64,000 bases of DNA, taken from assembly GCA_019058295.1 (NCBI GenBank), contig JAHPZI010000028.1:124001-188000 (forward strand), written 5' to 3'. Below are positions 56,844 to 62,899 of the stretch, piece by piece. Every line of letters starts with the position of its first letter. The stretch's first letter is position 1. The notes below the pieces were generated by a model that was not told the origin of the DNA, searched no databases, and saw only the letters and a program-made list of their open reading frames with translations. This DNA is from Promethearchaeota archaeon (GTDB lineage Archaea; Asgardarchaeota; Lokiarchaeia; Sigyniarchaeales; SOKP01). Position numbers and translations under genes: made by a program.

Positions 56844-58616
56844 ATGGCTAAAAAGGATTCGAAATCTAAAATGGAAACATCTCCCGTAGAAATTTTGAAG
56901 AAAGAACATGAAAGCTTAATTAAAGCGAAATCTGAAGCTCTAAGCATGCGATTAGAGGAGTTATCTAAAAATAAGAGAATTGAAATAGATGAAATTAAAA
57001 GCCAAATTAGTGCACACGAAAAAGAAATAACTAAGATCGAAGAAAAATTCGCAAAGGAAGAAGCTTCAGTAGAAAAAGACGTTGATGATGAATTTGCTCC
57101 TCAAATAAAGAAAATTACATCAGAATTAGAGATTAAACAGAAGAAATTAGATGAGGCAATTAAAAAGGAAGAAGAACTAACCGTAAAAAAGAAAGCCTTA
57201 ATTGATACTATTAAAAATTTAAAAAAAACCCAAAAATTAGCAATATCTTTAGCAGAAAAATCTAAAGTTCTAAGTACGCAATTAAAAAGCCTTCCAGAAA
57301 AAGAAGAATCCTTGGAGGAAAAAACTACTTCGAAGTTAGGAATTGATAATGAATTTGACACCCAAATAAAGGATATTGACGCTAAATTAAGCGCTGAAGA
57401 GCAGAATTTAGAAGCTATTATCAAAGATATTGACGATTGGACCGTAAAAAAAAATGAATTAAAGGATATAGTAAAAAATTTGAAGAGAGAGAATGGGATC
57501 TTAGAAAAAGCGAGATCTAAAATTCTAAATCCTCGATTAGATGAATTATCTAAAAATAAGAAAAATGAAATAAACGAAATTAGGAAAAATATTAGTGCGA
57601 ACGAGAAAGAAATAACAAAGGTCGAACAAAATTTTGCAAAGAAAGAAGCTTCTTTAGCAAAAGAAGTTGATAATGAATTTGATCCTCAAATAGCTAAAGC
57701 TTTATCAAAATTACAGAAGAAATTAGAAGAAACAATCAAAAAGGTTGATGTAACGCCCGTAAAAAAGGAAGAATTAGTAAGAAAACCAAAAATCGAAGTA
57801 AAACCTAAAAAGGAGATCGCTCCTGAAGAACTTAGAATATGCCCCGCATGTGGGCGAGATACTAAAATTTCTCATAAATTCTGTAAATTTTGCGGTATAA
57901 GCTTTAATCGTATTGATGCTGTTATGACAAAATTATCTGACGCAGAAAAGAAAGAATTAGAGTCAGTTCTTAAAAAAGAGAAAAAGGAGAGAATATGTCC
58001 CGCATGTGGGCGAAAAATTAAACTAGGTATGAAATTCTGTAAATTTTGCGGCGTAGAAATTAGTCGTATTGAAGCAATATTGACAAAAGCAACTAAATCA
58101 GAGGCTAAAGAATTAGGAGCAGTACCTAAAAAGGATTTGAAACCTAAAAAAGTAGTCGCTCCCAAAAAGCAAAAAGCAGGTGTAATAGCAGCCGCTGATA
58201 CGGTAGGGCTATCCGAAACAGAAAAGAAAGAATTGGAAAGAACAGAATCTGAGATGGATATAAAAAAGAAAGAAGTTAAATGTATTGTACATAGAGGGCC
58301 TATCGTTGGAAGTATATATCTCTGTCCAAACTGCATGACCTATTATTGCGTAAAATGCGCTAAAGCATTGAAAGAAAAAGGTGAAGCCTGTTGGTCTTGT
58401 GGAGAAAAGATTGAAATTGCCGTATCTGAATCAGAAATTAAACAAAGAATTAAAGATTATGAGACCAGATTAGATTCTCTTAAAATAACTGTAAAAAATC
58501 TTGATGAAAGTTTCTTCACCGGTGCCATTGGTAAAGAAGAATATATAAAAATGAAAGATTCTCTGACAGAAAAAATAGGGGTTCTATTAAGAGAAATTAA
58601 TAATTATAAAAGTTAG
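56844..58616 (+). CDS. coiled-coil protein with zinc ribbons and a RING-like zinc finger
   Basis: 590 residues. Long coiled coil (about 15-325) with two similar blocks (L-E-E-L-S-K-N-K and L-D-E-L-S-K-N-K), two near-identical zinc ribbons (C-P-A-C-G-x9-12-F-C-K-F-C-G, about 333-355 and 385-405), then a finger at about 480-520 (C-I-V-H, C-P-N-C, Y-C-V-K-C, C-W-S-C). That Cys/His order resembles RING/B-box folds. A helical tail ends it. It lies 194 bases before the Ub-like gene on the same strand, so a role as ligase or adaptor in that system is an attractive inference, not shown. Confidence 0.72.
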   Translation: MAKKDSKSKMETSPVEILKKEHESLIKAKSEALSMRLEELSKNKRIEIDEIKSQISAHEKEITKIEEKFAKEEASVEKDVDDEFAPQIKKITSELEIKQKKLDEAIKKEEELTVKKKALIDTIKNLKKTQKLAISLAEKSKVLSTQLKSLPEKEESLEEKTTSKLGIDNEFDTQIKDIDAKLSAEEQNLEAIIKDIDDWTVKKNELKDIVKNLKRENGILEKARSKILNPRLDELSKNKKNEINEIRKNISANEKEITKVEQNFAKKEASLAKEVDNEFDPQIAKALSKLQKKLEETIKKVDVTPVKKEELVRKPKIEVKPKKEIAPEELRICPACGRDTKISHKFCKFCGISFNRIDAVMTKLSDAEKKELESVLKKEKKERICPACGRKIKLGMKFCKFCGVEISRIEAILTKATKSEAKELGAVPKKDLKPKKVVAPKKQKAGVIAAADTVGLSETEKKELERTESEMDIKKKEVKCIVHRGPIVGSIYLCPNCMTYYCVKCAKALKEKGEACWSCGEKIEIAVSESEIKQRIKDYETRLDSLKITVKNLDESFFTGAIGKEEYIKMKDSLTEKIGVLLREINNYKS

Positions 58617-58809: not shown

Positions 58810-59067
58810 ATGAGAATCTCTGTGGAAGATAGTCGGACAGGCAAGCTGATTAAGCTCGATGTAAAAGAACATCATCAGATTGAACGAATTGTAGACATTA
58901 TCGTCAAACATATGGGGATTATTAGCACAGAACAACGCTCATATACTTTAGTTTTGAACGATCAGGAATTGCCTACAACCATAACAATAGAAGATGCTAT
59001 ACACAAATATGGCTTAAAGGAAAATGACAAATTAGCCTTATGGGCTAGAGTAGTTGGGGGCTTTTAA
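58810..59067 (+). CDS. ubiquitin-like modifier precursor
   Basis: 85 residues with the beta-grasp spacing (R-I-S-V-E-D strand, T-I-T-I-E-D-A-I-H late helix/strand) and a C-terminus V-V-G-G-F. Gly83-Gly84 is followed by a single Phe, so the mature tail needs removal of one residue, the expected job of the JAMM protein at 60613. Acts as a covalent protein tag or sulfur carrier. Its stop overlaps the convergent E2 gene's stop (TTAA at 59064-59067). Confidence 0.88.
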   Translation: MRISVEDSRTGKLIKLDVKEHHQIERIVDIIVKHMGIISTEQRSYTLVLNDQELPTTITIEDAIHKYGLKENDKLALWARVVGGF

Positions 59068-59627
59068 TCGTCGATTATAACAATATCGTCATCTGCCTCT
59101 TCTGCTTCTGCTTTTTCAAAATCATACTTTTCTTTAAGATCTGCCATCGTATTATGTTTGAAAAATTCAGTAGCCTCTAAACAAATAGGATAATTTAAAG
59201 GATCATCTGGATTTGGATTTTCTACGAGTAGTTTTAGTGCTTTTACAGTGGTATCCATATCAGATAAGAGAGACCATTTCTTTAAGACATTAAGGCAAAT
59301 GTATCCCGTTCCAGTTTCTCCAGAACCTAATTCGACCGGATGGATATTTGGGTGGAATATAGGGGAATACCAAGCAAAATCTATGCCTCCTGGATAGGGG
59401 AAGTTTCGATTAAGCTTCAGCATAATTTTATGATTCTTTTGAGGGATTAATTCCAAGCTTTGCGATCCCTCCTTTAAAACAAAGCCTAACGATTTTATAT
59501 TTACAATTAATTCAACTGAGTTTTCCTTGCGAATTATACTATTATCCTCAAGAACGTTTAAACGTTTTAAAGACTCCAATTCATTTTCGATACGGTCTTT
59601 CCAAATTTCAAGTGGAAGCTCTGGCAT
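59064..59627 (-). CDS. E2 ubiquitin-conjugating enzyme-like protein
   Basis: 187 residues of the UBC fold. H-P-N at 92-94 and the catalytic region G-Y-I-C-L-N-V-L-K-K-W-S with Cys111, exactly as in eukaryotic E2s; P-D-D-P-L-N near 138 also matches. It would take the Ub-like tag from E1 to targets. The last 20 residues are acidic. Last gene of the minus-strand operon with E1, JAMM and longin-GTPase. Confidence 0.9.
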   Translation of the reverse strand: MPELPLEIWKDRIENELESLKRLNVLEDNSIIRKENSVELIVNIKSLGFVLKEGSQSLELIPQKNHKIMLKLNRNFPYPGGIDFAWYSPIFHPNIHPVELGSGETGTGYICLNVLKKWSLLSDMDTTVKALKLLVENPNPDDPLNYPICLEATEFFKHNTMADLKEKYDFEKAEAEEADDDIVIIDD

Positions 59628-59706
59628 TTCTAAACCCGTTTATTTAATTATAAATTTTATATACCAATACTAATATTTATAACTTTGTTCATAACCATAT
59701 AAGAAT

Positions 59707-60588
59707 TTATTTTTTATTAAAACTGCAGATCCAACACTTAGGATCTTTTCTTTTTTCTATTATATCAAATTTATTTGTGAGCCCATTGTAATTTAGTTGT
59801 TTATTTATAAGAGGTTCTCCTATATTTGGATGCCATTTTCCATGTTCTTTGAAATAATCTATTCCTAAGACAAATTTTAATACCTGTTGTGTTTGAATTC
59901 CACCAATTATAGCGGTAGTAGTAATTATTGTTGCCATTTTTCCCATTGACTCACCATTTTCGGATTTTATTTCTTGTCCAGTACAGGAAAACTTTTTCCA
60001 CATCAAATTTAAATCAGCACTAGTTATTCCACATTGTAAACAAGCTGCATTTTCAACTCCTGAATATACAGCTTGTACAGAACCAAAAAACTCATCGATA
60101 CCACTGTCAATAAAAGGAATACCATAATAATAGGCATAATTATTTGCTTGAAGTCGGGCTTCGATATTATCGAGACATGAACAGACAACATCAGACTGTT
60201 TATAAAGATTTTTATCAATATCATTTAAATCCTGCTTTAATGCAACAATTTCTACCTCTGAATTTAAATTTTCGCAGGCTTCTTTAACAACATCAACTTT
60301 ATATTTATTTTCAATTGTACATTCCATGTTAAATAATACACACCGATTAAGATTTGATTTTTCAATAATATCATAATCGATTAAAATAATTTTTCTAATC
60401 CCAGTAAGTACTAGATTTTTAATTAATTCATTTCCAGTGGCACCAGCACCCACAACCATAATCGTTGCATTCGATATTTTATTTTGATCCCATCCAGGGA
60501 TTCGTTTTTGACGATCGTAAATATCCTCATCTATCGAATCTAATCCTAATACTTTATAATCTTTATTAATATCTTTTTTTCTAGTCAT
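59707..60588 (-). CDS. E1-like ubiquitin-activating enzyme (ThiF/MoeB/UBA fold)
   Basis: 293 residues. ATP loop V-G-A-G-A-T-G-N-E-L near 46-55, D-Y-D-I-I-E-K-S-N-L-N-R near 71-82 (activating arginine), zinc cysteines 183/186 and 285/288 (C-L-Q-C, C-W-I-C), and Cys202 in F-S-C-T-G-Q at the place of the thioester cysteine. Adenylates the Gly-Gly tail, then may hold it as thioester. Single-domain E1 like archaeal and ThiF enzymes rather than the doubled eukaryotic UBA1. 24 bases after JAMM, 79 before E2. Confidence 0.9.
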   Translation of the reverse strand: MTRKKDINKDYKVLGLDSIDEDIYDRQKRIPGWDQNKISNATIMVVGAGATGNELIKNLVLTGIRKIILIDYDIIEKSNLNRCVLFNMECTIENKYKVDVVKEACENLNSEVEIVALKQDLNDIDKNLYKQSDVVCSCLDNIEARLQANNYAYYYGIPFIDSGIDEFFGSVQAVYSGVENAACLQCGITSADLNLMWKKFSCTGQEIKSENGESMGKMATIITTTAIIGGIQTQQVLKFVLGIDYFKEHGKWHPNIGEPLINKQLNYNGLTNKFDIIEKRKDPKCWICSFNKK

Positions 60589-60612
60589 TTTTGTTATGAG
60601 CCAATAAATTAT

Positions 60613-61104
60613 TCATTTTGGGGAAATAATAGCAAAACTTATTGGTTTGTATCCATTTTCAGAATTATTATCAAGACTAAAAAATTTATAATATTTTTTT
60701 ACGGGATCCACGACTAGAGCTACTTGATACGACTCAGGAAAGAAAAATCTCTGAGTTTCCACATCTGTCGAACTCAAGAAACAGCCAAAATCGGGATGTG
60801 AGTGCCACCACCCAACTATTCTTAAGTCTTCATTATTTCTTTTACTTTTTAACTTCTGAAATTTTTTTTCGTATTTACCCGCAGTTCCTTCTATTTGTGT
60901 CGTTGAATATTTATGGCTATGGACAGCACCATTAATAAAAAGTTGATTTTCAATGACAACATAAATTATATCATTCCATTTTAAAATGTTCCCAATTAAG
61001 TAGCCAAAAATTTCTAATTCGTTTTTTGTACATAATTTTTTAATGTTATTTAAAACAGCTTCTTCCATATATACAGGGAATACAAAATTTTCGTCAATTG
61101 TCAT
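60613..61104 (-). CDS. JAMM/MPN ubiquitin-like protease (Rpn11-like)
   Basis: 163 residues, a bare MPN domain. Glu31, H-S-H-P at 101-104, Ser111 and Asp114 form a complete JAMM zinc site; the segment H-S-H-P-D-F-G-C-F-L-S-S-T-D is very close to Rpn11. Expected to trim the Phe from the Ub-like precursor and to remove tags. Overlaps the longin-GTPase gene by four bases, so translation is coupled. Confidence 0.9.
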   Translation of the reverse strand: MTIDENFVFPVYMEEAVLNNIKKLCTKNELEIFGYLIGNILKWNDIIYVVIENQLFINGAVHSHKYSTTQIEGTAGKYEKKFQKLKSKRNNEDLRIVGWWHSHPDFGCFLSSTDVETQRFFFPESYQVALVVDPVKKYYKFFSLDNNSENGYKPISFAIISPK

Positions 61105-62015
61105 TTTTCATTTTGCCTTGCTTTTAATTTCTCTAAGACTGAAATCTTTAACATTTCAGTAAATATCGAATAGATTTTTTCTTTTGAGTCTTCTTTAATC
61201 GCTGAGAATCCATATGTTTTTATCTCAAAGGCTTTTTCAATTTTATCAGGTTCAAACGCAGAATCCTTTAAATCTTGAAAATTTGCTATAATATAAAAAT
61301 CGGCTTTCTTAACTAATGGTCTCAATCGGTTAAAAAGACTCCTAGTTCTACCCAAGTTACTAGCTGCTGAATTAGATACAATACAAATAATTTCGACGGT
61401 GTCTAATAATTTCCTATAAAGTTTTGATTTATTTACCAATTCTTCTAAATCTATTTCTCTTAATTTAAATTGTTTTAAATCTTCTACACCTGATACTGCT
61501 ATAAGCTTCTCAATTATTTCATTTAAATCCTCATCCAATTCAAGGACTGTCTGACCGGGGAATAAATCCATTATTGTAGACTTCCCTACGCCAATCTCAC
61601 CAATTAATAATATTTTCGGAGGTATAAATATATGTTCTTCGATGAAGTCATCAAAATTGTTGAAAGTTGAAACATTTCCGTCAAAATTTTTTAATAATTT
61701 ACTGTATCTTTTTAAAAATTCAGATTTCATTAGTTCTACTTTAGGTCTAGCCTCTTCTTCTAAGTCGTCTATATCGGTAACAACAATAAACATACAACCA
61801 AATTCATCATCATAAGAATATATAAAATTGAAGTTTCTAAAGTTTAGAGCCTTAATTTCGCCCCCTTTTATTTCTTGTGCAAAACTGCTAATTGCTGTAA
61901 GAAAACCACTAATTAAATCGTCATCAGCTTCTAAATCACTGGAGCTCTTTCCAAAAAAATTTTTAGAATAACACAAAATGCCTCCTGCCGCGATAATAAG
62001 AACCCTAGAGATCAT
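61101..62015 (-). CDS. longin-domain small-GTPase-like fusion in the ubiquitin operon
   Basis: 304 residues from ATG 62015, which has AAGGAT just before it; a GTG at 62036 is also in frame. Residues about 1-113 look like a longin domain (I-S-R-V-L-I-I-A-A-G-G-I, F-I-V-V-T-D-I). Residues about 130-304 are a P-loop NTPase of the Ras-like type: G-E-I-G-V-G-K-S-T at 139-147, A-N-F-Q-D-L-K-D in place of N-K-x-D, F-S-A-I in the S-A-K position. DxxG is not clear. First gene of the operon with JAMM, E1 and E2, where no GTPase is usual. Confidence 0.7.
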   Translation of the reverse strand: MISRVLIIAAGGILCYSKNFFGKSSSDLEADDDLISGFLTAISSFAQEIKGGEIKALNFRNFNFIYSYDDEFGCMFIVVTDIDDLEEEARPKVELMKSEFLKRYSKLLKNFDGNVSTFNNFDDFIEEHIFIPPKILLIGEIGVGKSTIMDLFPGQTVLELDEDLNEIIEKLIAVSGVEDLKQFKLREIDLEELVNKSKLYRKLLDTVEIICIVSNSAASNLGRTRSLFNRLRPLVKKADFYIIANFQDLKDSAFEPDKIEKAFEIKTYGFSAIKEDSKEKIYSIFTEMLKISVLEKLKARQNEK

Positions 62016-62339
62016 TTTTATATCCTTTTTTTCCACTTGATAATTGAATTCAATTGAATAGATTTAAAATGATAAATTTTTACTAATTTTAATCATTCAG
62101 AGATTCACGTATAATTTAATTATTTATATGTTTTTTATATTTTTTAATTTATGTTGTTTTAGATTAATTATTCCTCTTATAAAATTGAAAAAAGAATTGA
62201 CTCAGATTATCGTTTAAAAAATATTTAAATTTCCTTGCTTTTCATATCAAAAATTTATATCCAGATCACGAAAATAAATATATTATAACAAATTAAAATT
62301 AATATTAAAATAAATATAGAACTAAGAAGGCTAACCACA

Positions 62340-62465
62340 TTGGGAGAGAAAGAAGAAAAGCACCCAACTATAGTAGAAACTGAAGAGAAAGAAATACCGG
62401 AAAAAAGACCACCTAATGATAAAATTCTCTATTTCAATATAGCAGATAACAAAGATAAAAATTAG
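62340..62465 (+). CDS. small charged ORF
   Basis: 41 codons from TTG to TAG, rich in Glu and Lys, with P-E-K-R-P-P-N in the middle. An AGAAGG lies nine bases before the start. Transcribed away from the ubiquitin operon. No family known; real status unsure. Confidence 0.35.
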   Translation: MGEKEEKHPTIVETEEKEIPEKRPPNDKILYFNIADNKDKN

Positions 62466-62555
62466 GTAAATACCAATCGATATTTGTTTTATTTATTAAC
62501 TCATTTTAACAATTTGAATAATTAAGTTAATTTTAATTTATTTAAAAGAAAGAAA

Positions 62556-62673
62556 GAAGGGCCAACGAAATCCACACAATTTTGCAAAAATTAGGGAGAA
62601 AATTAAACTCTAAACAGAGTTTAATAGAGGGCGAAATCCAATGTTGTGCGTGAATTTTGCTAAATTTCCCTTC
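62556..62673. ncRNA. candidate structured RNA between convergent genes
   Basis: A 118-base block richer in G and C than its surroundings. It opens GAAGGG and closes CCCTTC (pairing ends), has a perfect ten-base-pair hairpin with an AAAC loop at 62602-62625, and carries CGAAATCCA twice (62566-62574, 62632-62640), each followed by ATTTTGC. No reading frame fits. The minus strand is the likelier template side because a T-rich run (CCCTTCTTTCTTTC) follows its end. Family not recognised; not C/D box or SRP by eye. Confidence 0.45.
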
Positions 62674-62899
62674 TATACATATTTATCATTTGGTTGATTA
62701 ATAAATATAGGTTTATTGACAGTTTTATGTTCTAATAGAACATACATATTTTAACTTAAATTATTCAGATTGAAAACTGTATTTTATGAAATATTAACTT
62801 ACTTTAAAGTTAATTTATAAAAAATATAAATGATTTAAGTAAGAAATTGTTAATTTTTAAAGTAAAACCTCTTGCTATTTTTTTAATCGCATTAATCGT

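Follow-up and report, generated by a model that had tools for sequence, protein, structure and literature searches.

A ubiquitin-like conjugation cassette of Lokiarchaea and its near-obligate partner, a longin protein with a degenerate Ras-like domain

Introduction

What is a gene for a longin domain joined to a Ras-like domain doing at the head of a ubiquitin-type conjugation locus in an archaeon? The question is raised by a 64,000-nucleotide stretch of a Promethearchaeota genome (Lokiarchaeia; contig JAHPZI010000028.1, positions 124,001 to 188,000), hereafter the window. It contains genes for a ubiquitin-like modifier (UBL), an E2 conjugating enzyme, an E1, a JAMM protease and the longin protein, which we call LGTP. 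A prediction made from the letters of this stretch alone, hereafter the original prediction, saw a complete ubiquitin-type cassette with a GTPase as operon partner and suggested switch-controlled or membrane-linked tagging. Here we report that LGTP accompanies the UBL as a near-obligate partner and that, judged by its motifs, it is apparently a switch-dead GTPase (pseudoGTPase). The observations on which we build are gene content, conserved order, co-inheritance, clade membership, motif loss and predicted fold.

LGTP is a conserved partner of the modifier

The minus strand of the window carries, in order, LGTP (61101..62015), a JAMM/MPN+ protease of 163 amino acids (60613..61104), a compact E1 of ThiF fold with 293 amino acids (59707..60588) and an E2 of 187 amino acids (59064..59627); the UBL, of 85 amino acids, is encoded on the plus strand (58810..59067). 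The LGTP and JAMM genes share the four bases ATGA (61101-61104), the overlap that had been predicted. LGTP is also an operon partner of JAMM, E1 and E2 as proposed, but not of the UBL, whose gene is convergent with that of E2 (their 3' ends share four bases) and forms a separate transcription unit. We take the ATG at 62015 as the start of LGTP, because it is the conserved one; the GTG at 62036 is less likely.

Gene order was counted in species-level public records that retain the DNA upstream of JAMM. LGTP, or an LGTP–nitrilase fusion, lies directly upstream of the protease gene in 17 of these 19 records (gap of at most 58 bases, or overlapping open reading frame (ORF) calls), often in two or three tandem copies. 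In one exception (L106) an LGTP–nitrilase and a second UBL sit on another contig of the same genome (L192); in the other (L108) LGTP and a GTPase–TIR fusion lie on the opposite side of the UBL. Most Lokiarchaeal cassettes have the order LGTP-JAMM-E1-E2 with a convergent UBL, and the Sigynarchaea (L078-L080) retain LGTP-JAMM-E1, with E2 and UBL relocated. A search for a conserved neighbourhood, set beforehand as a check on the prediction, thus found the order LGTP-JAMM-E1 in both Lokiarchaea and Sigynarchaea.

The two proteins also travel together. Among 58 genomes, 17 have LGTP and UBL, one has LGTP only, none has UBL only and 40 have neither (p=9e-14, a value that overstates independence because the genomes are close relatives). 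The UBL profile is present in 28 of 228 Asgard genomes, all from two families, Lokiarchaea and Sigynarchaea. A divergent UBL domain in genome G025 (45% identity) was left out of the co-occurrence count; in its 542-amino-acid ORF (L196:9911-11539, contig C59) an internal GGG comes next and then another ubiquitin-like stretch, so that the product may be a UBL fusion or polyprotein. Viral origin was considered and rejected, as a search of 2.9 million viral contigs with the UBL profile found nothing related.

The GTPase follows the modifier rather than the enzymes

Seven extra UBL copies are located away from E1, E2 and JAMM. Six of them (two in G019, one in G034, two in G144 and one in G138) are each convergent with a GTPase gene from the clade of LGTP, and a membrane RING-like gene is near; these GTPases are solenoid or nitrilase fusions, mostly without a longin domain. 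Genome G034, which is 99% complete, encodes UBL, LGTP and RING-like proteins and has no cassette-type E1, E2 or JAMM. On the strength of these pairs and of the G034 gene content, we place LGTP as a partner of the UBL and not as a regulator of E1 or JAMM. The coupling of a GTPase to the conjugation set, as first proposed, narrows to one in which the GTPase tracks the UBL and not E1 or JAMM.

A predicted longin fold joined to a Ras-like domain without the G3 motif

No single Pfam model matches LGTP above its own cut-off. A Pfam scan of the family gave weak matches throughout (Roc in 21 of 21 members, Fuz_longin in six, Longin in four). Because phmmer searches of PDB with LGTP alone returned weak matches only, and the longin profile had no match there, the domains were assigned from folds. 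The AlphaFold2 model, built with 21 sequences, is of medium confidence (mean predicted local distance difference test (pLDDT) 75, predicted TM-score 0.74). In Foldseek its C-terminal domain (61101-61631) matches Arf, Rab, Ras, MglA and Rag (E about 1e-7 to 1e-6), placing it in the Ras/Arf-like fold. The N-terminal domain (61632-62015), modelled alone with medium confidence (mean pLDDT 71), has the topology b-b-a-b-b-b-a-a with no N-terminal helix, which is that of longins, and matches Sec22b (TM 0.68), AP2 sigma, TRAPP longins and SRP receptor. Family scan, model and Foldseek together bear out the predicted fusion, and the structural check, so far as a model of medium confidence allows, refuted neither the longin domain nor the nucleotide pocket.

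The motifs tell of partial decay. The P-loop GxxxxGK[ST] is kept (GEIGVGKS, continuing to GEIGVGKST in the window), with G146, G149, G151 and K152 invariant across the 21 members, and the G5 motif FSAI is retained in the family. The G3 motif DxxG(Q) of switch II is absent from every UBL-linked GTPase. The G4 motif reads N[FY]QD in all Lokiarchaeal UBL-linked GTPases (NFQD in the window) and NMQD, NCQD or NKQD in the Sigynarchaeal ones; sampled longin-GTPases without a UBL link have NKQD and mostly DFAGQ. In the tree, all UBL-linked GTPases, Sigynarchaeal included, form one clade (100/100) separate from the other longin-GTPases, which were chosen by similarity to LGTP and are a sample, not the whole family.

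A complete set of conjugation proteins

All aligned UBL copies, which are 63-88% identical, end in VxGG plus 0-4 variable residues (VVGG-F in the window), and trimming of the UBL by JAMM would therefore fit. The UBL profile matches PDB polyubiquitin weakly (E=0.007), and the one observation on kinship with SUMO is a weak Rad60-SLD match (E=0.04). The E2 matches UQ_con only in Pfam (2e-9) and nothing in PADLOC, and its H92, P93, N94 (the HPN motif) and C111 are invariant in 11 sequences. In the E1 (ThiF, 1.5e-49), ten sequences share G47, G49, G52, D71 and C202; a nucleotide-binding glycine motif and two CxxC zinc pairs are present, and C202 is the presumed catalytic cysteine. A profile search with the E1 matched UBA1 (1.9e-36) and UBA5 (about 1e-19), and PADLOC E1-E2 models match it over the ThiF part only. 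The JAMM protein (JAB, 1e-12) has its metal ligands complete, with EIFG and HSHP...LSxxD in the alignment.

Four features of an archaeal ubiquitin-type cassette are present, namely a UBL with a processable GG, a ThiF E1, a UQ_con E2 and a JAMM/Rpn11-like protease, and their motifs support the view that the window genes form a complete conjugation cassette. On this point the prediction was accurate: ORFs, alignments and Pfam agree with the GGF end of the modifier, the HPN and Cys111 of the E2, the ATP and zinc motifs of the E1 and the JAMM ligands.

The same genome (G000, 3.2 Mb, with the window on contig C28) encodes a canonical ubiquitin cassette on contig C12 (L139 4181-15887), comprising an E1 of 411 amino acids, an E2, a JAMM protein of 266 amino acids, two ubiquitin-like proteins and a membrane RING protein, with a proteasome beta subunit nearby. 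Because this canonical cassette lies separately, we regard that of the window as additional and specialised. Also encoded in the C12 region is a membrane protein belonging to the RING-like family found beside window-type UBLs.

Further parts of the locus

Three features had escaped the original prediction: a microprotein, acidic E2 tails and RING-like proteins beside the UBL. The microprotein, SP, is acidic, has 41 amino acids and a TTG start, and is encoded divergently from LGTP (62340..62465, plus strand). Its core is HPTIV...PPNDKILYFN, and most Lokiarchaeal cassettes have a homologue in the same divergent position next to LGTP. The ratio of nonsynonymous to synonymous change is about 0.2-0.4 in five close pairs, which indicates purifying selection; the pair of the window and L063 is too close to judge, and in another pair silent sites are saturated. 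The interval from SP to the next gene has imperfect inverted repeats (62555-62690, plus strand) with a possible RNA fold (-28.1 kcal/mol, z -2.1), a 50-base part of which is found once more, on contig C8.

The E2 of the window ends in DDDIVIIDD (59067..59093, minus strand). Tails of the form DDDI(V/I)IIDD occur in 14 of 15 cassette E2s as against one of 411 other locus proteins, and a similar tail ends one LGTP copy (L065/L098) and some RING-like proteins. These acidic tails resemble SUMO-interacting motifs (SIMs) in sequence, and we imply no more than resemblance.

A RING-like cross-brace domain is found beside the UBL in most loci. According to hydropathy, the protein concerned is a multi-pass membrane protein in most loci; that of the window is a soluble coiled-coil, zinc-ribbon protein encoded upstream of the UBL on the same strand (56844..58616), with the Cys/His cross-brace at about 58281-58400. 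The family profile of the zinc domain gives RNF4 as its best match (E=1.1e-4), followed by other RING E3s, all weak, and the window protein is a candidate E3.

Several other neighbours were noted. A canonical Rab-like GTPase gene near several cassettes was not counted as a part because such genes are abundant. A winged-helix and TPR protein of about 633 amino acids recurs beside LGTP genes (L065:11920-13821, L068:5154-7055, L098:3254-5152, L104:5457-7352, L108:11156-13045 and L110:2661-4544). In the nearest relative (L063:2395-4257), E2 and E1 are separated by a 620-amino-acid ORF that has no family match, is absent elsewhere and was taken as an insertion. Record L112 (WJJB01000498.1), titled Bathyarchaeota, has a cassette-type E2 that groups with Sigynarchaea (G043), and is probably a mislabelled bin.

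Nitrilase and TIR fusions in relatives

In three species an LGTP–solenoid–nitrilase fusion of 868-882 amino acids occupies the LGTP slot directly upstream of JAMM (L095:5798-8440, L097:5858-8464 and L107:5843-8491). Further fusions are at L100:3273-5888, L105:3265-5880, L192:114-2756 and L201:820-3441, and two solenoid–nitrilase proteins of 1275-1277 amino acids are encoded at L106:149-7944. The fusion nitrilase matches the PADLOC model RTasNitrilase, the anti-phage nitrilase of DRT1 (E=9e-15), and had no match among PDB sequences. Its E-K-C triad can be traced, with FPE and CRDF found in all nine fusions and the lysine read by eye as [EK]KHIP. The nitrilase domain of DRT1 has a role in anti-phage defence (PMC7699616). 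Five of the nitrilase fusions have a canonical Rab-like GTPase gene immediately upstream.

In one species only, a GTPase of the UBL-linked clade is fused to TIR beside the UBL (L108:9282-10172; the same locus is L235:7231-8121; TIR_2 E=8e-14). The LGTP of the window carries no fused enzyme. Because relatives fuse the GTPase to nitrilase or TIR, an immune or stress-response role is plausible.

Discussion

Looking across the analysis, we propose that the locus is a dedicated second UBL conjugation system of Lokiarchaea, distinct from their canonical cassette, in which LGTP would serve as a nucleotide-bound adaptor or transducer for the UBL; we consider this proposal evenly poised between right and wrong. 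Based on what is known of these families, E1 and E2 would activate and carry the UBL, JAMM would trim it to GG and may also deconjugate it, and the RING-like protein, which most relatives have as a multi-pass membrane protein, would probably act as ligase. The longin domain would dock on a membrane or trafficking partner. With its P-loop kept and its G3 switch lost, the Ras-like domain may be a nucleotide-bound adaptor and not an on/off timer. LGTP could then read or localise the UBL or its conjugates and relay a signal, whose output in relatives would be the enzyme (nitrilase or TIR) fused to the same GTPase module; since the window LGTP is without a fused enzyme, it would act by recruitment.

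Several points weigh against this proposal. We infer every binding and catalytic step in it, and nucleotide binding by LGTP is predicted from motifs and from the medium-confidence model (mean pLDDT 75). One extra UBL (G143) has no GTPase neighbour. The G019 cassette is without LGTP, and an LGTP–nitrilase and second UBL lie on another G019 contig. The co-occurrence counts are uncorrected for phylogeny, and most of the genomes are metagenome-assembled.

A wider version of the adaptor proposal sees the whole as a signalling or immune system that responds to the UBL. The longin–pseudoGTPase clade, together with membrane RING-like ligases, would link conjugation to outputs that are exchangeable (none, nitrilase or TIR), and SP would be an extra regulator or substrate. 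This would be a pre-eukaryotic link of ubiquitin-type tagging, small-GTPase biology and immunity; we regard it as possible and lean against it.

Another explanation is that the locus is an immune or abortive-infection module, in which the UBL arm would sense or tag damage or an invader and the GTPase module would trigger a toxic enzyme (a TIR NADase or DRT1-type nitrilase) or a membrane effector. The GTPase–TIR adjoining a UBL and the nitrilase fusions, which three species have directly upstream of JAMM and others at different places, with their RTasNitrilase match, speak for it, as do the patchy distribution of the UBL, the tandem copies and the spare UBLs. Counter to this, the window LGTP lacks an effector, the TIR case is single, the UBL is highly conserved and slow-evolving unlike defence parts, and we saw no clear defence island and no viral contig with the UBL. 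We consider such a module a tentative alternative.

Alternatively, LGTP or its nitrilase and TIR fusions could be the main substrate, activated when E1 and E2 attach the UBL and reset by JAMM, comparable to Cap2/Cap3 acting on the cGAS-like enzyme of the type II cyclic-oligonucleotide-based anti-phage signalling system (CBASS). In support, LGTP heads the operon with an overlap into the protease gene, the GTPase module is the part to which effector enzymes are fused, and there is a precedent (PMC10097602) for conjugation of an enzyme co-encoded with E1, E2 and JAB. However, the LGTPs showed neither a conserved acceptor site nor a conserved C-terminal motif, and G034 has UBL and GTPases without cassette E1, E2 or JAMM, unless the canonical enzymes serve. 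We think this unlikely.

More doubtful still is a classical switch, in which LGTP would cycle between GTP and GDP and gate E1 or JAMM. The conserved P-loop and G5, the operon position and the Ras-like fold are what such a switch would have, but DxxG/Q is lost in all UBL-linked members, G4 is changed to N[FY]QD, and the GTPase stays with the UBL where E1 and JAMM are absent. Because G3 is lost and NKxD reads NFQD, the switch control of the original prediction is doubtful; its other half, a membrane link, is likely, given the longin fold and the membrane RING-like neighbours. Chance or hitch-hiking of one of the many Asgard longin-GTPases, of which this genome has about two dozen longin and/or GTPase relatives, is largely refuted and has next to no probability, because the order is kept in two families, co-occurrence is strong, the clade is dedicated and UBL–GTPase pairs recur.

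In the membrane traffic and immunity of eukaryotes, ubiquitin-type tags are coupled with small GTPases and longin adaptors. The inheritance of a UBL pathway and a longin–pseudoGTPase as a unit, in the archaeal phylum closest to eukaryotes, bears on the origin of this coupling, which six small soluble proteins (UBL, E2, E1, JAMM, LGTP and SP) would suffice to test.

Comparison with known systems

The closest described system is the archaeal ubiquitin cassette of Caldiarchaeum subterraneum and Asgard archaea (PMC5654768, PMC6043591, PMC9192718), which likewise has a UBL with GG and a short tail, a ThiF-type E1, a UQ_con E2 with HPN and Cys, a RING-like protein and an adjoining JAMM protease. The window-type system differs in its divergent compact E1 (293 amino acids), the SIM-like tail of its E2, a dedicated LGTP, the microprotein SP and a RING domain that is mostly on a membrane protein. 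In agreement with the prediction that a GTPase lies outside the described cassettes, none is mentioned in the main texts of James 2017 (PMC5654768), Hatano 2022 (PMC9192718) and Makarova 2024 (PMC10936438).

Bacterial ISG15-like (Bil) and type II CBASS Cap2/Cap3 loci also bring UBL, E1, E2 and JAMM/JAB together, and some relatives of the window locus have defence-type effector domains. Membership in either was rejected: Pfam and PADLOC gave no prokaryotic E2, E1-E2 fusion, CD-NTase or other defence core. In contrast to those loci, the window E2 is of the UQ_con type and a GTPase partner is added.

Longin-GTPase fusions are already known in Asgard archaea, and MK-D1 GTPases lie generally outside the operons of their regulators, according to Tran 2024 (PMC10933270). 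LGTP shares with those fusions a longin domain joined to an Arf/Rag-like GTPase, and differs in its own UBL-linked clade, the lost G3, the altered G4 and an operon with conjugation genes. The longin platforms (TRAPP, AP sigma/mu, COPI and AAGAB-AP1 sigma), which are among the top Foldseek matches, similarly set a longin fold beside a Ras-like or pseudoGTPase domain, whereas LGTP holds both domains in one chain and is tied to a UBL pathway.

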